This document shows positions 7,045-27,734 of a stretch of 64,000 bases of DNA, in pieces. Where the stretch lies: contig CAMZGS010000013.1 of assembly GCA_947306475.1 (NCBI GenBank), positions 1-64,000 of the forward strand, in the 5' to 3' direction. The notes beneath the pieces were generated by a model. It saw nothing but the letters and a program-made list of their open reading frames with translations. It searched no databases and had not been told where the DNA came from. Source of the stretch: an uncultured Comamonas sp. GTDB lineage: Bacteria; Pseudomonadota; Gammaproteobacteria; Burkholderiales; Burkholderiaceae_C. Position numbers and translations under genes: made by a program. The first letter of the stretch is position 1; every line of letters starts with the position of its first letter.

Positions 7045-7260
7045 TCACTTTTCGCTCCTTTTTTCAAACCACTCCACGCGCTTTTGCACATCAGCCGCGG
7101 GCAGCGCGGAAAAGCGCAGGCAGATGCGCGGAAACGTGCCGCTGTGTGTCGTGCTCGGGTTCTTGCCCTGCCCGCAGGCGCCAAAGCCGTACCGGGCCAT
7201 GGCCGGGGCTTCGCGCAGATTCCAGTGGGCGCAGTGGATGCAGGTGATTTCTTTGTTCAT
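7045..7260 (-). CDS. Small Cys-containing phage protein
   Basis: MNKEITCIHCAHWNLREAPAMARYGFGACGQGKN... Confidence 0.55.
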   Translation of the reverse strand: MNKEITCIHCAHWNLREAPAMARYGFGACGQGKNPSTTHSGTFPRICLRFSALPAADVQKRVEWFEKRSEK

Positions 7261-8057
7261 GCGGCCACCTTCTTGCGATAGCTCTCCCAAGTGAACGGAA
7301 TCACCTTCCCACCGTCTTCGCGCAGGCGGTCCATCACGCGCTCGCCCAGGAACTCGGTCACCTCCTCCTTGGTCAAGTTGGACAAAAACAGCGTGGGCTT
7401 GCGGCGCTCGTAACGCTCATTCAGGACATCGAACATCGTGTTGCGCTCAAAATCCGAGCCAAACTGCACGCCCACCTCGTCGAGGATCAGCAGGTCTGGG
7501 GCCACAAGCGCCGCAATGGCCTGGGACTCGCTCGTCTCCGAGCCTTTGACCCAGGTGTCCTTGATCGAGCGCATGGCCCGCATCACCGTGATGAACAGCA
7601 CCGTGGCATCGTTGTGCTGCATGACGTGTTTTGCGATGCCGCACGCCAGGTGGGTCTTGCCGGTGCCAGGACGGCCCAAGAAAACGGCGCTCAGCCCTGT
7701 GCGGCGCACCTTGTCGAAGTTGGTCGCATAGTCCTTGGCAAACTGCAAGGCCGTCTCTTGGGCGCTGCTCTGGGCAACAAAGCTGTCAAGCGACCGATCC
7801 AAAAAGCGCTCAGGGATACCGGCTCTGCCCAGCGTGCGGGCGATGCTCGCCTCCTTGGCGCGGCGTGCAGCCTCGCGGCGCTGCTCTTCCTCCTGGCGCG
7901 CCACCTCCTTGGCGCACTCCGGACAGCCACTCCAGCGTTTGCCGATGAGGTGGCGTGCTTGGTACTCGCCGTGCTTGTCGCAGGTGCGCGTCTCGTAAGT
8001 CGGCGCCTGGGACAGCTTGGTCCACAGCGGATGGTTGAGGGTGCCAATTGCCTGCAT
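7257..8057 (-). CDS. DnaC-like ATPase / helicase loader
   Basis: Zn-ribbon-like N-terminus plus Walker A GRPGTGKTHLACGIA and LLILDEVG. Confidence 0.8.
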   Translation of the reverse strand: MQAIGTLNHPLWTKLSQAPTYETRTCDKHGEYQARHLIGKRWSGCPECAKEVARQEEEQRREAARRAKEASIARTLGRAGIPERFLDRSLDSFVAQSSAQETALQFAKDYATNFDKVRRTGLSAVFLGRPGTGKTHLACGIAKHVMQHNDATVLFITVMRAMRSIKDTWVKGSETSESQAIAALVAPDLLILDEVGVQFGSDFERNTMFDVLNERYERRKPTLFLSNLTKEEVTEFLGERVMDRLREDGGKVIPFTWESYRKKVAA

Positions 8058-8986
8058 CACAGTGCCTCCACGCCAGTGCCGTAGTCTTTTTCGGCAAAGT
8101 TTTCGACCTTGGGGGTGCGCTTGCCCGCAGGCCGTGTACCCCCCCCTGTGCACGCTTTCACCAGCCATGCCCTGGCGTCGGCAGGCTGGGTGACCACCGC
8201 CTCACGCACCGCCTCCAGCACTGTGTCGTTGCCGTGGTCCCGCACCAGCTTGCCCATCAGCGTGCGAGCCTGCTGCTCGTCAATGCCCTGGCCACCCAGC
8301 AGGGCAACTGCTGAGCGCCAAAGCTCCTGCTTGGCCTGCTCCTCAGGCGACTTGGCACTTGGCGCCTGCTGCAGCTGCGGCACCGCCGCCGTACCGATAG
8401 GTACGGAACTAATAGAAGATGAAGATGAAGATGAAGGGGGGGGGGTTTTTTGTTCGTTAAGGGGGGGGTTAAGGGGGGGGTTTTTTGCGTCTTCATGGGG
8501 GGGTATTTGTTTGCGTGGACGCCCCCCCTTTTTGCCGTGCTCTGCTCCTAAAAAACCAGCACTCTTTCCTTTGTGGCCGTGCTCTGCGCCCTTATGTCCA
8601 TGTGACGCACGCATGTTGCGTACCGCCTCATCTCTGACCATCCGGCGGCTATAAATAGTGCCGTCAGCCGTGCGAGAAAACACGCCCGCCTCTTCCAATT
8701 CTTTGAGGATTTTTTTCAAAAAAGTTGGAGATTCCCCGACGATTCGAGCAATCTGCTCCACCGTCATGGCCCTGCCATTGATAGACAAGTGGCCATAACG
8801 ATCGGACTCATGGGCTATGCAAAGCATCTCCATCCACAGGCCGCGCGCCGCCAGCGAGCACGCATTCAGGGATGGATCACGCCTCCAGTCACCCGGATAG
8901 AACTGAAATGATGGTCGTCGTGCTGTTGAAGCCACTTTGGGCGTTGCCTCTTCCACTGGAAACTGATAAATTTGAGCTAAGGCCAT
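8057..8986 (-). CDS. Phage replication initiator-like protein
   Basis: FQFYPGDWRRDPSLNACSLAARGLWMEML...; adjacent to helicase loader; C-tract-rich linker. Confidence 0.7.
   Translation of the reverse strand: MALAQIYQFPVEEATPKVASTARRPSFQFYPGDWRRDPSLNACSLAARGLWMEMLCIAHESDRYGHLSINGRAMTVEQIARIVGESPTFLKKILKELEEAGVFSRTADGTIYSRRMVRDEAVRNMRASHGHKGAEHGHKGKSAGFLGAEHGKKGGRPRKQIPPHEDAKNPPLNPPLNEQKTPPPSSSSSSSISSVPIGTAAVPQLQQAPSAKSPEEQAKQELWRSAVALLGGQGIDEQQARTLMGKLVRDHGNDTVLEAVREAVVTQPADARAWLVKACTGGGTRPAGKRTPKVENFAEKDYGTGVEAL
8389..8528. repeat. G10/G8/G8/G7 runs, C7 run, (GAAGAT)3 and a hairpin: G4-prone, candidate replication origin
   Basis: G-runs at 8436-8445, 8461-8468, 8473-8480, 8497-8503; CCGTACC-GATA-GGTACGG 8389-8406. 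Confidence 0.6.
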
Positions 8987-9062
8987 TTGTCCATTCCTGT
9001 TGGTTGTGGTTGTTAAAGCCCCGGCGTGTTGCGAGCACGTCGGGGTTTTGCTTTTCTGTGGG

Positions 9063-9230
9063 TTAGATCCGACTCCAGCGCATGCCGAAACGCTTTTCGG
9101 CATCACGGCGGCTGGCTTCCGCATTGATGACAATGTCAGGGCCGCGCTTGTAGCGCTGGCGCGGCTTGACGGCTGCGGCCACTTTGCTGTGGCGGGGGAT
9201 CACGAATGCGTTGGGCTTGGTGGTGCTCAT
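9063..9230 (-). CDS. Small hypothetical phage protein
   Basis: 55-aa minus-strand frame MSTTKPNAFVIPRHSKVAAAVKPRQRYKRGPDIVINAEASRRDAEKRFGMRWSRI. Confidence 0.45.
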   Translation of the reverse strand: MSTTKPNAFVIPRHSKVAAAVKPRQRYKRGPDIVINAEASRRDAEKRFGMRWSRI

Positions 9231-9911: not shown

Positions 9912-10149
9912 GCAGGTCTTCAACTCTTACTTTTGTTGCCGGCAGGCTGGTGTACTGTGCGCATGCGCGGCCCACCGGCGCCACTGACCTAACCTCGTCC
10001 GACTGCACCGCTGCGTACAGAGCGGCAACCTCTTGGTGCAGCGCCTGGCCCTGCGCTAAAGCTGCAGCGCCACCACCCAGCGATGGCAACGGCTTCGGAG
10101 CCTCTATAGCTGCGTCAGCGGGGTTGGCGTGGGTCAACTTCTCAGCCAT
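9793..10149 (-). CDS. Hypothetical phage protein downstream of the Cro-like gene
   Basis: MAEKLTHANPADAAIEAPKPLPSLGGG...; start overlaps the end of the YdaS-like gene. Confidence 0.4.
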   Translation of the reverse strand: MAEKLTHANPADAAIEAPKPLPSLGGGAAALAQGQALHQEVAALYAAVQSDEVRSVAPVGRACAQYTSLPATKVRVEDLLKSAGYSRAEPAAPPAGLFSTLAAWLMQLRFRLLTRGRK

Positions 10150-10462
10150 GGGACACCTCAGTTTCTGTAGCCGCTCGCACAGAGCTGGTGGGCGTTGGTG
10201 GGCAAAAGTCCAGCGCAGGACGGCCCAGCGGATGCGGCCATGCCGCATCTGGGATGCGATACCAAGTCACATGCGGGAGAAGTTCCTCGCATGTCACGGC
10301 GCCACCAGTGGCGCGCTCGATAGATGGACAGCGAGCGCTTGGGATGGGGCGAGAGCCATCACTCCATTGGTGGACAGTTACCGCACTTACGCCAATGGCT
10401 GCGGCCAATCGAGACTTGCCCCGCATCGCCTCGCAAGCCACTTTGATAGCTGATCTAGTCAT
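10142..10462 (-). CDS. YdaS/Cro-like transcriptional regulator
   Basis: IKVACEAMRGKSRLAAAIGVSAVTVHQWSDGSRPIPSARCPSIERATGG; divergent from CI-like gene. Confidence 0.75.
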   Translation of the reverse strand: MTRSAIKVACEAMRGKSRLAAAIGVSAVTVHQWSDGSRPIPSARCPSIERATGGAVTCEELLPHVTWYRIPDAAWPHPLGRPALDFCPPTPTSSVRAATETEVSHG

Positions 10463-10468
10463 GCCGCA

Positions 10469-10543
10469 ATGATATGGCAATGCCTAATTTATTGCAAGGA
10501 ATTGCCTTATACGTAGCAATAGAGGAGGATTAGGCAATGCTTA
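10469..10543. promoter_or_regulatory. Repressor operator region with leftward promoter TTGCAA-N17-TATCAT
   Basis: Operator-like sites GGCAATGCC (10476-10484), AAGGAATTGCCTT (10496-10508), TAGGCAATGCTTA (10531-10543, over the repressor start). Confidence 0.6.
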
Positions 10544-10956
10544 CAGGCGAAGAACTGGGCGCAGCCATTGCGTCCGCAATTGAGAAGAAGAAAGTAAAGA
10601 AGAAGGATGTTGCGGACTTCTTCGGTGTAAAGCCGCCGTCTGTCCAGGACTGGATAAGGCGAGGAACCATCGATAAAGCAAAGCTGCCTGCGCTTTGGCA
10701 ATATTTCTCGGATGTTGTTGGGCCGGAGCATTGGGGTTTGACAACGCTATCCATCGATTCAGACCCTGCAGAAATATCGCTAGGGCAAACCCTGGCGCGG
10801 CTGGGTCAGGCGCTGGAGCGGGCCCAGCCACAGACACGCGCTGCCGTGGCCGACCTGCTCAGCCGTTACGCTCAAGACCCGGCGCAGGGTAAATCCCTTG
10901 CACAAGCTATTGAAATGCTAGTGCAGTCCGATATAGAAAAAAAAGCTGACGCATGA
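10537..10956 (+). CDS. CI-like HTH repressor without a peptidase domain
   Basis: HTH KKDVADFFGVKPPSVQDWIRRG; 139 aa, no S24-type C-terminus. Confidence 0.7.
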   Translation: MLTGEELGAAIASAIEKKKVKKKDVADFFGVKPPSVQDWIRRGTIDKAKLPALWQYFSDVVGPEHWGLTTLSIDSDPAEISLGQTLARLGQALERAQPQTRAAVADLLSRYAQDPAQGKSLAQAIEMLVQSDIEKKADA

Positions 10957-11429
10957 TTCCACCATTGGACGAGCGCGGCTTGCTGCCGCCAGGCTGCCAC
11001 CGCTGCAAAGATTGGGCTGAGCTAGAAGAAAGGTTTGCCTTCAACCCCTACCGCCAGCGTCTCCTGGAACAGGCCATGCAATTTGTGCAGTATCGCTTGA
11101 CCCCTCTGGCTAGTGGGCTCAGACTGGTGGTTGCAGGCAGTTACTTGAGCGACAAGGCACAGCCTGGCGACGTAGAGATGCTGGTGTCTTTGCCAATGCA
11201 CAGCATTGGGCAGCACGTGGGCCTGTTGGATATGTTCGATAAAGAGGGCGGCAAGCGCAGCATCTGGACAACCCACAGAGTGGACTTTTATGTTCAGTTA
11301 GAAGGCTTTGGCGGTAACGACTTGGCCCTGTTTTTCCAGTACGTTGGAGAGAAAACCGCCGCAGACAAAGGGCTAGACGCCAAGGACAAACGCGGCACAA
11401 TCGAGATCGAATCATGGACACTGCCGTAA
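10953..11429 (+). CDS. Minimal nucleotidyltransferase-like protein
   Basis: Pol-beta NTase-type motif AGSYLSDKAQPGDVEMLV plus downstream RVDFYV; ATGA overlap with repressor. Confidence 0.55.
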   Translation: MIPPLDERGLLPPGCHRCKDWAELEERFAFNPYRQRLLEQAMQFVQYRLTPLASGLRLVVAGSYLSDKAQPGDVEMLVSLPMHSIGQHVGLLDMFDKEGGKRSIWTTHRVDFYVQLEGFGGNDLALFFQYVGEKTAADKGLDAKDKRGTIEIESWTLP

Positions 11430-12403
11430 ATCACCTGCACCACCGCGCAACACTGCTGCTGCAGCAGATCGCCATGGCCATGCAGGCGCAAAGCAGCCAG
11501 GGCGTGGACATGAGCGGCTTCATTGCGGGCTACCAGCGCAAACTGCAAGAGGTGTACAGCGAAGAGCTGCCCTTGGCCATACTGCGCGATACCAGCGACA
11601 TCATTTTGCATGTTGAAGGCCCCGCCGCGCGCCACCATGCAGCAGGCAGCGGTATGGTGGCTTGGCTGTGTGGCGAGGCAGAAAAGCGCATCCGCCAGCT
11701 GGGTATGTCTGCCATCAAAACCAATGGCAGCAGCGCAGAATCGGCAGAAAGCGACTTGCGTGTGCTGCTCAATGGCTTGGCCCCTGGCAGCCTGTACTTG
11801 GGTTTCTCCGTCGATTCGGCCCAGCGTATGGCGGTGCAGCAGCAAGATGCGTTGGCGCTGCCAGATGGGGATGTCATGGCATCCATCCGTGGCGCGGTGC
11901 GCACCCTGCCGTTGGTACAGCAGTTTGTGGAAGACGAATCCATCAACCCAGCCATCTCTGAGGCCATCGCTGACGCCCAAGTGCGAGACGCCTCCCTGAT
12001 GGCTGCCTACCACCTATCGCCCACCGGGCGGCGCGGCATCCACACCATAGAGATCAGCGCCCCCGGCTCTCGTCAGATACCCGCAGCATTCACCAACCGT
12101 GAACGTGTGGTTCTGCGCGAAAGCGCCCTACGCACGCCGGTGATGCGTGCCGTGGCATCAGGCACATTTGTGGGGGAGTTGCGCGAGGTGGATCTGGATG
12201 CCAAACGCTTTCACCTACGGAACGTGCCAGGCATTGGGGGTATCCGCTGCGTGCTTGGCAACCTCAATGCAGACACTGCACGCAAACTCATTGGTCATGG
12301 CGTGCGCGTCAGTGGTGAATACGAAGCTGATGCCGACGGCAAACCCCGCCTGATGCGCGTGCAAACGGTAGAGCCATATCAAATCCAGAAATCCCTGCAA
12401 TAA
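11414..12403 (+). CDS. Unknown protein (329 aa) with beta-rich C-terminal domain
   Basis: Overlaps NTase-like gene; C-term FVGELREVDLDAKRFHLRNV...VRVSGEYEADADGKPRLMRVQ. Confidence 0.65.
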   Translation: MDTAVNHLHHRATLLLQQIAMAMQAQSSQGVDMSGFIAGYQRKLQEVYSEELPLAILRDTSDIILHVEGPAARHHAAGSGMVAWLCGEAEKRIRQLGMSAIKTNGSSAESAESDLRVLLNGLAPGSLYLGFSVDSAQRMAVQQQDALALPDGDVMASIRGAVRTLPLVQQFVEDESINPAISEAIADAQVRDASLMAAYHLSPTGRRGIHTIEISAPGSRQIPAAFTNRERVVLRESALRTPVMRAVASGTFVGELREVDLDAKRFHLRNVPGIGGIRCVLGNLNADTARKLIGHGVRVSGEYEADADGKPRLMRVQTVEPYQIQKSLQ

Positions 12404-12409
12404 TCATTC

Positions 12410-12901
12410 ATGCCTGCCATTTACAGCCCCGACATTGCCAGCATGACGCCTCTTGGCGCTCAGGCTTTTGCCGCGCGCAATCTGGATTTGCTGGCGGCCA
12501 TTGAAAACACACTCGACGGTCTCGGTGCAGATACCCAACTGCTGCGCGCCATTCATGACGGCTACCAAGAAATACAACAACGCCTCGTCGGAACCGATGG
12601 CTCCATTGACGACAGTGGTCGGATACAGGCCAAACTGGACAAAGCTAGTGCCGCCTGCGCGCGCATTTACCAAGATGCCTGCCGACGCCACCAAAGCGCC
12701 TGCAAAGACCCACAACTGTACCCTGATGACGGCGTGGCCGATGCTTACAGCGCCTTCATCGAGGCGCTGGGTCAACTGCATGACACCATAGAGGCTCTAC
12801 GTGAGTGGATTGCCACGCACGACGCCGTGCTGCAACCTACCACGGGCGCTGTGTACTCCAGTGCAGACGACTTGTTTGCCGCTTTGCTACCCAAGCAGTG
12901 A
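12410..12901 (+). CDS. Unknown alpha-helical protein (163 aa)
   Basis: 7 nt after previous stop. Confidence 0.6.
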   Translation: MPAIYSPDIASMTPLGAQAFAARNLDLLAAIENTLDGLGADTQLLRAIHDGYQEIQQRLVGTDGSIDDSGRIQAKLDKASAACARIYQDACRRHQSACKDPQLYPDDGVADAYSAFIEALGQLHDTIEALREWIATHDAVLQPTTGAVYSSADDLFAALLPKQ

Positions 12902-13173
12902 CGCACCGTATAGCAATCACCGGATTTGCTCACTCTGAGCGCTTTGCCTCAGACTTACGCAGCGCCCCGCCAGAAGTGCAGCGCGCCACCCGGGAGGCGC
13001 TCAAGCACCTGCAAGCCAACCCAAGCGCTAAGTCACTGCGCCTGCACACCTTAAGCGGCATGCCCAAGCCCACCATTTGGAAGATCGACGTGTACGCAAA
13101 CCACGCTTGGCAAGTGACATTTGAGCTAAACGGCACCATGATCGAGCACCGCAGGAGGTTTCGGAGGAAGTGA
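12898..13173 (+). CDS. RelE/ParE-superfamily-like protein (GTG start)
   Basis: GTGA overlap; MTHRIAITGFAHSERFASDLRSAPPEVQRATREALKHLQANP...WKIDVYANHAWQVTFELNGTMIEHRRRF. Confidence 0.55.
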   Translation: MTHRIAITGFAHSERFASDLRSAPPEVQRATREALKHLQANPSAKSLRLHTLSGMPKPTIWKIDVYANHAWQVTFELNGTMIEHRRRFRRK

Positions 13174-13517
13174 TGCTCAACCACAAGTCGGCTAAGTGGA
13201 GCGCGTGGTGTGGGCGTGGAATGGTAGGAAGCTTTGAGCGTCAAGGCATGTGACGCAGGAAGTGACTCCATCGCCGACCGAGCTTGGCAGGATTCGATGG
13301 TGTTTTGAGTGGTAGCTGATGCGTCAGCACCGCAGGGGGCTCGGGGCCGCTGTTCACCCCATAGGTACACGTCTCTTGGGTTGTTGTAGGTGTTGCGGGC
13401 ACCATCGGCGCGGCGAAAAGAGCTAAATTTCGCGACCAAAATCCATGTCAGGACGCCGTGCACATTTTTACACTTTAGCACTCATGAATGAAGAGTGCCA
13501 GCGTGATTGCGCTCGGT

Positions 13518-13580
13518 TACAATGGAAGTTGCCTCCAAAGAAAACGGCTACCCATTGCTGGGTAGCCGATGACTTTAGGC
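13518..13580 (+). promoter_or_regulatory. Two-tier hairpin after a TACAAT -10-like hexamer
   Basis: GCCT(CC)AAAG-AAAA-CGGCTACCCA-TTGC-TGGGTAGCCG-ATGA-CTTTAGGC, 13531-13580. Confidence 0.55.
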
Positions 13581-13727
13581 AAATCGTCGCAGTTGCGTTT
13601 GACCCTCGAAAAGTACCGCTTCTGCTTTTTTGTGTAGCCCTCGATTGTACACACGTCTATGCATTCTTGCATCAAATTTGTGTAGATAAGAGGACTGCAC
13701 GGCTACCTATGCTCGAAAGGAGCTGCT

Positions 13728-14531
13728 ATGCCGTCTCACCAATATTCACTCTCCCTCATCTCCCACCAAGTGCAGAACTCCATCGTAGAGCAGCGCGCAT
13801 CGGACGGGTACATCAACGCCACCGCCATGTGCAAGGCCGCAGATCGCAAGATCAGTCACTACTTCGATAACGATAGCTACAAAGACTTTATTCAAGCGCT
13901 TTCAGCCGATGCCGGAATTCCGGCATCGGAACTTGTGCAATCGGTAAAGGGGGGCAATCCTGCACTGCAGGGCACCTGGATTCATCCCCAAGTGGCCATC
14001 CACCTCGCGCAGTGGCTGTCCCCGCAGTTTGCTGTCCAGGTTTCCAAGTGGGTATTCGACTGGATGTCGGGCAAAGGCAAACCAACTAAGCTCCCCTACC
14101 ATCTTGAGCGCCACCTGATGAATCTGAACAAGATTCCCGTGGGCTACTTCTCCGTGTTGCAAGAGATGACGAACTTTCTTGTTGGCCCAATGGAGGCGAA
14201 TGGCTATCGTTTGCCCGAGAAGTGCATGCCTGATATCTCCCATGCCAAATTGCTGTGCAAGCACCTGCGTGATGACTACGGCGTGGACACCAACTCTCTC
14301 AGCAAGTATTCGCACCAGTTCCCTGATGGGCGGGTTGTGGCCGCGAACCTGTACCCAGTGGAATACTTGGGCGCGTTCCGCCGCCTCATGGCGGAAGTGT
14401 GGATGCCCCAGCATGCTGCAACCTACTTCAAGGCCCGCGACCCTGCCGCTTTACCTGCGCTTGACAAGATTCTCCTGTTGAGTGCCCCGCAGAATTCCGC
14501 CAATCAGCCAAGTCTCAAGCGCAAGGCATAA
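13728..14531 (+). CDS. KilA-N domain protein
   Basis: SDGYINATAMCKAADRKISHYFDNDSYKDFIQAL...GTWIHPQVAIHLAQWLSPQFAVQVSKWVFDW. Confidence 0.85.
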   Translation: MPSHQYSLSLISHQVQNSIVEQRASDGYINATAMCKAADRKISHYFDNDSYKDFIQALSADAGIPASELVQSVKGGNPALQGTWIHPQVAIHLAQWLSPQFAVQVSKWVFDWMSGKGKPTKLPYHLERHLMNLNKIPVGYFSVLQEMTNFLVGPMEANGYRLPEKCMPDISHAKLLCKHLRDDYGVDTNSLSKYSHQFPDGRVVAANLYPVEYLGAFRRLMAEVWMPQHAATYFKARDPAALPALDKILLLSAPQNSANQPSLKRKA

Positions 14532-14540
14532 CACCACCAT

Positions 14541-14564
14541 AGCGCCCGCCCCGTGCGGGCTTTC
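14541..14564 (+). terminator. Intrinsic terminator-like hairpin
   Basis: gcccgccccgtgcgggctttctc. Confidence 0.6.
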
Positions 14565-14875
14565 TCATACCCTATCCATGCCTCTCCAGCCACCGGCCGC
14601 ACCATGCGAGGCTCAATCCCACAGCACACCCCAAAGCTAATGCTGCAAGCCCCCAACCCGTTGTGGCTAGCGGCAGCACCTCCAGCATCTGCTCAGGTAG
14701 CACCATCCCAAAGCGCCCTTCTGCACGATCTAGCCTGCGCATCAAAGCCAGAGATGCAAGAAACCAGCCAGCGCAGACACTAGCCAGGAGTTGCCCGGCA
14801 ACGCGCCAGCACTTCGGGCAAGTCAACAAAATTTGAAGCAGCAATTCCATCACCGCCATGATGCACTCGCACAAC

Positions 14876-14898: not shown

Positions 14899-14937
14899 CC
14901 TTTGCAATCTATACGCAATCTACGTACAATAACCCGA

Positions 14938-15276
14938 ATGAAAGCAGTCTTTGTAGAGCTACCGGCCTTTGAGCGATACCGCGCTGACTATCTGGACGAC
15001 GAGAACTTTCGCAACCTGCAAGACAGCCTGATGAAAAACCCAGAAGCCGGTGATGTGATCGAAGGCACAGGCGGCCTGCGCAAAGTACGCCACGCAGACC
15101 CTAGACGGGGCAAAGGCAAGCGCGGAGGCTTGCGAGTGATCTACTACTGGTGGGATGGCAAGAACCAGTTTTGGCTCTTCACCCTCTACGACAAAGACGA
15201 ACTTGATGACTTGAGCCCAAAGCAGAGGACTGCGCTCAAGACCATGCTCAAGGCAGAACTGGAGGCTCGACAATGA
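14938..15276 (+). CDS. HigB/RelE-like toxin
   Basis: AFERYRADYLDDENFRNLQDSLMKNPEAGDVIEGTGGLRKVRHADPRRGKGKRGGLRVIYYW. Confidence 0.8.
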   Translation: MKAVFVELPAFERYRADYLDDENFRNLQDSLMKNPEAGDVIEGTGGLRKVRHADPRRGKGKRGGLRVIYYWWDGKNQFWLFTLYDKDELDDLSPKQRTALKTMLKAELEARQ

Positions 15277-15587
15277 CCAAACGCGACATCTTTGCAGAAC
15301 TGACCGAAGGATTTGAAGCCTTAAAGGAACAGCGCACCGGTAAGCGCACCTTGCGCACCCATGAGGTGCAGATCAAGCCAGAGGTGAAAATCGAAGCAGC
15401 TGAGATCGTTTCCCTGCGGGATAGCTTGGGCCTGTCCCGCGCTGTGTTCGCTCGCTATCTACGCACCAACCCTCGCACCCTAGAAAACTGGGAACAAGGC
15501 CGGGCCAAGCCCAACGCCCAGGCTGCGCTCATCATGCGCCTGGTTGAAAAGTATCCAGACACGGTCAAGCGTCTAGCTGCCGTCTAA
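15273..15587 (+). CDS. HigA-like HTH antitoxin
   Basis: IVSLRDSLGLSRAVFARYLRTNPRTLENWEQGRAKPNAQAA; overlaps the toxin gene. Confidence 0.8.
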   Translation: MTKRDIFAELTEGFEALKEQRTGKRTLRTHEVQIKPEVKIEAAEIVSLRDSLGLSRAVFARYLRTNPRTLENWEQGRAKPNAQAALIMRLVEKYPDTVKRLAAV

Positions 15588-18556: not shown

Positions 18557-18765
18557 GCAAGCGCCAGCAGTGCCCCACCGGAAAGGTGCCGCTGCTGGAA
18601 TACCAACTCGCCCAGTACCGCGCTCGCAGATCCAGCGCGCGCCACGAACGTGCCATCACGGCATACCGCTGCGCCGAATGCGGTGCGTGGCACCTGGGCG
18701 GGTCGAGCAAGCTGCGCCGCCCTCTTCCCATCATCAACAGAATCCACCACGTGAGGTTTGCATGA
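18553..18765 (+). CDS. Small Cys-motif phage protein
   Basis: AYRCAECGAWHLGG; coupled overlaps on both sides. Confidence 0.5.
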   Translation: MSKRQQCPTGKVPLLEYQLAQYRARRSSARHERAITAYRCAECGAWHLGGSSKLRRPLPIINRIHHVRFA

Positions 18766-26708: not shown

Positions 26709-27734
26709 GTGCCCAAAATCACCAAGTATCCGCGCCTGCGTGCAAAGGTTTACAAGGGCCGCGCTGGGCAGGTCTATGTGTATTACGTCTATGACATGCG
26801 CTCCGAGGGCAAACAAGACATCAGGCTGGGCAAGGACTACGAAAGCGCCATTGCTCAGTGGGATGAACTGCACAACAACCGCCAGCGCATCGTCGGGCGC
26901 CTGGAAGAGGCGTTCAAGCGCTGGGAAGAGCAGGAGCTGCCAAAGTACGAGAGCGCCGAAACCCGAAAGGGCTATGCCAAGAACCTGCGCGCCATCCGTC
27001 CAGTTTTCGGGCAGATGGCGTGGGATGAAGTAACCCTGCCTGCCCTGCGCCAATACCTGGATCTGCGCAGTGCCAAGACACAGGGAAACCGGGAAATGGC
27101 ACTACTGCGCGTTATCTGGGGGAAGGCGCTGCTGTGGGGGATGACGCGCCTGCCTTGGCCAGCCACAGGCATTCGTGGCTGGAAGAACCGTGAGTCTGCG
27201 CGCACCTTTGCCGTGACTGACGATCTCTTCCGGGCGGTGTACGCACAAGCTGACCAGGTGCTGCGCGACTGCATGGACATTGCCAGCGCAACTGGCCTGC
27301 GCATCACGGACGTGCGCAATCTGCGCATGCCACAGGACGGCTACATCACCCACAAGACCAGCAAGACCAAAAAGGCCGTGCGCTATCCGGTGGCCGACTC
27401 CCCTACCCTGAGCGGCATTGTTCGGCGACGCGAGGCCATGCGGGCCTACAGCCCGATGCTGCTATGCACCAGCACAGGGCGTGCCGTCAGCATGAGCATG
27501 CTGCGTAGCCGCTGGGAAGAAGCGCGCGACAAGGCGGCGCTGCTTGCAGAGCAAGCTGGGGACGAAGAGCTTGGCCAGCGCATCAGAGCCATGTTCTTGC
27601 GCGACATGCGCAGCCTTGCTGCCGACCTGGCTGCTGACGTGGATGAAGCATCCAAGCTGCTGCTGCACAGCAGCAAGACCGTCACGGAAAAGCACTACCG
27701 CACCAAGGCGCAGACCGTGAAGCCAGTGCGCTGA
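26709..27734 (+). CDS. int: Phage tyrosine integrase
   Basis: Catalytic-type pattern ATGLRITDVRNLR...MRSLAADLA...LLHSSKTVTEKHYR; next to att site; GTG start. Confidence 0.9.
   Translation: MPKITKYPRLRAKVYKGRAGQVYVYYVYDMRSEGKQDIRLGKDYESAIAQWDELHNNRQRIVGRLEEAFKRWEEQELPKYESAETRKGYAKNLRAIRPVFGQMAWDEVTLPALRQYLDLRSAKTQGNREMALLRVIWGKALLWGMTRLPWPATGIRGWKNRESARTFAVTDDLFRAVYAQADQVLRDCMDIASATGLRITDVRNLRMPQDGYITHKTSKTKKAVRYPVADSPTLSGIVRRREAMRAYSPMLLCTSTGRAVSMSMLRSRWEEARDKAALLAEQAGDEELGQRIRAMFLRDMRSLAADLAADVDEASKLLLHSSKTVTEKHYRTKAQTVKPVR

Follow-up and report, generated by a model that had tools for sequence, protein, structure and literature searches.

A DUF6932 nucleotidyltransferase and its partner behind the repressor of a Comamonas prophage: candidate lysogen-expressed defence cargo

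The 64,000-nucleotide stretch of DNA analysed here (the window) belongs to a Comamonas genome; among its relatives, the MAG Comamonas sp. STD2_78 was the closest found. The region of interest is a Comamonas prophage. Its left side carries a terminase small subunit gene and tail genes, replication genes occupy 7257-9133, RecT is encoded at 18570, and an integrase gene at 26709 adjoins a tRNA-Met gene; attL was not found, and the sole other tRNA-Met match is on C8. Positions 10142-10956 belong to the immunity region. Here a Cro-like HTH regulator (10142..10480, minus strand; phrog_35, transcriptional repressor, E 4e-13) diverges from a RacR-like HTH repressor (gene 1; 10537..10956, plus strand), a layout that recurs in L004, L049 and named phages. 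Between both regulators and overlapping the repressor start, at 10471..10543, lie repeats, GCAATGCCTAAT and ATTAGGCAATGC (direct pair 81%, inverted pair 92%), that we propose from sequence alone as candidate operators. The repressor lacks an S24 protease domain, scores 106.8 bits against the NCBIfam RacR model over residues 1-124, short of the cut-off of 200, and is 53-65% identical in its N-terminal part to CI repressors of Pseudomonas phages; the CI-like repressor of the original prediction is borne out as to its HTH type and its place in the immunity region of a prophage. The repressor gene is a mosaic when set against that of the sister prophage (L005): its DNA-binding half (10537-10769) is unrelated, its C-terminal tail common to both. 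Homology begins at 10769, and the tail and everything behind it to 13147 are 93% identical, which puts a recombination point within this gene. The idea that the tail is specific to the downstream module was dropped; it aligns with the tails of the RacR family.

Four genes follow the repressor on the plus strand, and all the coordinates and overlaps claimed for them at the outset hold. The repressor gene overlaps the start of gene 2, which encodes a nucleotidyltransferase (NTase; 10953-11429), in an ATGA at 10953; the NTase gene overlaps gene 3 (11414-12403) by 16 nt; 6 nt separate gene 3 from the start of gene 4 (12410-12901); and gene 5 starts at a GTG at 12898 that overlaps the TGA of gene 4. 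No plus-strand intrinsic terminator was found ahead of 14544, and the suggested co-transcription with the repressor is therefore plausible. The NTase and gene-3 reading frames overlap, by 4, 7 or 16 nt, in 17/17 distinct loci measured, and between the window and the sister genome both genes are under strong purifying selection (dN/dS 0.04 for the NTase, 0.06 for gene 3). Given this selection and recurrence, the arrangement is not a matter of chance.

The NTase (10953..11429, plus strand, 158 aa) is of the minimal Pol-beta type and belongs to DUF6932 (PF22014, E 1.8e-18, 67.7 bits against a cut-off of 27), with further matches to DNA_pol_B_palm (E 0.001) and to the PADLOC model PDC-M63A (E 3e-5). 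Its motif, G62-S63-x9-D73-V-E75 (GSYLSDKAQPGDVE), with a third acid, D111, in VDFYV, carries the superfamily pattern G[SG]x9-13DxD/E plus third acid and yields the triad D73, E75, D111; the minimal NTase originally recognised from the motif is upheld as DUF6932. The GS and DxD/E positions are kept in 17/17 gene-3 loci, with D or E at the third position; in the Mycobacterium abscessus homologue described below, the third acid is absent at the aligned place. A sequence search of the PDB with the NTase profile returned nothing significant.

Gene 3 (11414..12403, plus strand) encodes a protein of 329 aa for which Pfam, PADLOC, NCBIfam and PHROGs gave no match, and by sequence comparison it represents a new family. 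Its relatives were gathered by successive profile searches of viral contigs, to which L003, L043 and the sister locus were added. Fourteen viral contigs carry such relatives, at 35-74% identity, and in 18/18 gene-3 loci examined the gene immediately upstream is DUF6932, its end overlapping the gene-3 start. The family is rare in genomes (1/369 sampled from the class, that one being the window's own). Three further candidates in other genomes, L012, L013 and L015, had appeared with an early profile (E 3e-4 to 5e-3); these are long chemoreceptor-like ORFs and were rejected as chance matches. The PDB held nothing significant for a sequence search with the gene-3 profile. An AlphaFold model (AF2) from 15 sequences, made after an earlier 3-sequence model had reached a pLDDT of 38, has a pLDDT of 79.9 and a pTM of 0.75, and predicts a helical N-terminal part, an alpha/beta section in the middle and, at the C-terminus, a part with the order beta-beta-beta-alpha-beta-beta. 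Foldseek matched this last part to OB folds, for example those of SSB, RPA, PriB and LysRS (E 1e-3 to 3e-2, ~85 columns), which suggests an OB-like fold for the C-terminus; there was no PDB match to the model below E 0.001, and in BFVD the best fold match over the whole length is from Leptospira phage LE1.

DUF6932 also occurs with partners outside the gene-3 family. Sampled genomes supplied 33 intact DUF6932 loci: the partner measures 300-340 aa in 28 of them and is an HTH-IrrE protein in four, and one has none evident. The four (L018, L022, L023, L029), in which DUF6932 precedes an HTH plus IrrE/ImmA-like protein, represent a different DUF6932 architecture; in phage MissE1, DUF6932 lies near an ImmA gene, and the DUF6932 gene of L028 is the one without an evident partner. 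The 28 partners comprise 5 PDC-M63B types, 19 of a second class and 4 gene-3 types. The second class is homologous to the PDC-M63B types (hhalign E 1e-8), and gene 3 aligns collinearly with the combined profile of these 24 partners (hhalign probability 76%, E 2.2e-5; reversed controls P 0.026-0.44); the M. abscessus partner aligns with the combined profile at E 8e-6. The PADLOC PDC-M63B model, by comparison, did not match gene 3 of the window, the best of its 15 relatives reaching E 0.036. Gene 3 is thus probably a remote, highly diverged relative of the PDC-M63B partner, on the strength of profile comparison. PDC-M63, an unvalidated candidate system in PADLOC, resembles the pair described here in that DUF6932 is followed by a partner of ~310 aa with an overlapping or adjacent start, in its frequent position behind a phage repressor and in its identical NTase motif; it differs in that a sequence relation between M63B and gene 3 is seen solely at the profile-profile level. 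In AbiE, too, an NTase gene has a partner gene and a link to phage defence. There, however, the antitoxin gene comes first and the NTase gene second, whereas in the window the partner gene follows it, and AbiE models were absent among the PADLOC matches.

Genes 4 and 5 have a history of their own. Gene 4 (12410..12901, plus strand, 163 aa), which pairs with gene 5, has no significant family matches. In L070, gene 4 (78% identity) and gene 5 stand without DUF6932 or gene 3, downstream of an S24-type repressor, and we therefore regard them as a second, separate module; they are absent beside gene 3 in L003, L004 and the other loci. The single five-gene functional unit of the original prediction is not supported by this comparison, which indicates instead that the five genes are a composite whose core is the conserved pair of NTase and gene 3. 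Gene 5 (12898..13173, plus strand) is possibly RelE/ParE-like, the best sensible match being RelE3 (3bpq) at an E of 0.15, a weak basis for that identity, and it does not appear intact: it is 90% identical to the sister over residues 1-86 and then diverges, the last ~18 codons of its relatives being replaced here, so that its 3' end differs after about 13147. At that point begins a segment missing from the sister locus (13147..14871; sister homology resumes at 14872). It contains a gene for a BstA-like KilA-N protein (13728-14531; phrog_6287, E 3.3e-55), so that where the sister has gene 5 followed by a terminator and a HigBA-like pair, the window has the BstA-like gene in between. This gene, which shares the rex position, is likely a second defence gene; apart from a 9-nt pair at 13734/13761, it showed no clear aba-like repeat. 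Farther on, at 14935-15587, come two overlapping genes, one RelE/HigB-like and the other resembling an HTH antitoxin, with matches to PF06296 (E 6e-5) and HTH_3; this stretch is colinear in the sister prophage.

The pair lies directly behind the repressor on the same strand with no terminator in between, as expected of the rex position, and an HTH/CI repressor overlaps the NTase gene or lies <=145 nt upstream of it in 12/17 gene-3 loci (0.7-1.9 kb upstream in 3/17; none in view in 2/17). Pairs of the M63 type occupy the same place in E. coli mEpX1 and PhiR30_1 and in Erwinia phage vB_EhrS_59, mEpX1 having an intact DUF6932 pair, gp42-gp41, behind its CI gene, and in M. abscessus prophiGD21-3 a DUF6932 pair lies directly behind CI with 4-nt overlaps. 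The lambda rexAB genes are defence genes at the site downstream of cI. BstA (PMC8585504) and RexABpp (PMC12894663) are defence genes at this site as well. The pair resembles all three in its place directly behind a prophage repressor, where expression in the lysogen would be expected, but its proteins are unrelated to theirs. Its neighbours elsewhere also belong to defence. In five type I restriction operons (L007, L021, L034, L038, L041), hsdS is immediately followed by a second-class pair, and the DUF6932 pair may be part of some restriction-modification (RM) operons; in L043 (86-2909), outside any obvious prophage, two ThsB-TIR genes lie upstream of, and adjoin, a DUF6932/gene-3 pair.

Our findings describe an obligate, co-inherited NTase/gene-3 pair with a full set of catalytic acids that moves as one unit among unrelated phages and is found repeatedly behind phage repressors, and its position and neighbours make an anti-phage function likely. 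We read the locus as immunity-region cargo, in which the NTase and its OB-domain partner are followed by the independent gene 4/gene 5 pair and the inserted BstA-like gene, and which would serve as lysogen-expressed defence; we give this reading a probability of about one half. The proposed mechanism runs as follows. The pair would be expressed together with the repressor in the lysogen, and the NTase and gene 3 would bind each other as a complex, with the OB domain binding or sensing a nucleic acid or a phage protein. Infection by another phage would release or activate the NTase, which would add a nucleotide to cellular RNA or protein and so stop phage growth, a mode of action like that of a toxin-antitoxin or abortive-infection system. 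The superinfection-immunity cargo first suggested for this locus stands as the best reading of position and neighbourhood, though the one published test found for a related system gave no protection: deletion of PDC-M63AB from E. coli NILS69, challenged with virulent dsDNA phages only, revealed no defence (PMC12409345).

The main rival to defence cargo, which we consider unlikely, is a type VII-like toxin-antitoxin system in which the NTase is an antitoxin that nucleotidylates gene 3 as the toxin, stabilising the prophage with or without an effect on other phages. Adjacency, co-translation, a minimal NTase and tight co-inheritance are what such a system would show, and two published reports provide the precedent of MNT covalently nucleotidylating HEPN (PMC7641770, PMC11586414). 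MNT-HEPN and the present pair share a minimal NTase with a co-translated partner; they differ in that gene 3 is predicted to be alpha/beta plus OB-like and not the all-helical HEPN type, and in that DUF6932 carries an N-terminal motif specific to it, IPPLDxRGLLPxGxH. The original prediction had seen no RX4-6H motif and concluded that the genes do not fit MNT-HEPN. Such strings do occur, at residues 290-295 of gene 3 and 131-137 of gene 4, but the relatives of gene 3 do not conserve the string found in it, and the conclusion stands, the partner not being HEPN-type. The DUF6932 gene without an evident partner in L028 also speaks against an antitoxin, and the association with hsdS and ThsB favours defence over addiction.

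An improbable alternative is that the pair controls lysogeny, modifying or reading the repressor, which here has no S24 self-cleavage domain, and so setting induction. ATGA coupling of repressor and NTase genes in the window, L003, L005 and L051-L053 is compatible with this, as is the HTH-ImmA/IrrE neighbour of DUF6932 in L018, L022, L023 and L029 and the nearby ImmA gene in MissE1. The evidence from co-inheritance points the other way. NTase distances follow gene-3 distances (Mantel r 0.87, p 0.0005) but not those of the repressor DNA-binding domain (r 0.07, p 0.23), both p values being rough since the loci are not independent. The pair thus stays in place while repressors change, which favours cargo and disfavours a dedicated modifier of the repressor. 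Moreover, DUF6932 pairs follow S24 repressors, which are expected to cleave themselves, and occur in type I RM operons without any repressor. A moron with a role in host fitness unrelated to phage defence is very unlikely; the published PDC-M63AB deletion, with its lack of a phage phenotype, would suit it, but the recurrence of such pairs in type I RM operons and at the rex position would not. Least probable of all is a five-gene operon whose products all cooperate, with RelE/ParE-like gene 5 as toxin, since the tight spacing of all five genes and their linkage in the sister prophage are set against the separate occurrence of both pairs and the altered 3' end of gene 5.

Returning to defence cargo, we tentatively extend it to a broad class of immunity carried by phages, one whose function is undescribed. 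Formed by DUF6932 and an OB-domain partner, it may ride the prophage repressor promoter in proteobacterial and actinobacterial phages and occur in type I RM operons as well, with the gene-3 family as a new branch. The laboratory phage mEpX1 has an intact pair behind CI, and the question is therefore testable in E. coli K-12. If this reading is true, DUF6932 would be a defence family open to a definite test, and the temperate phages of very different bacteria would keep the same NTase pair at the site of lambda's rexAB, freely exchanging their repressors but retaining the cargo behind them.
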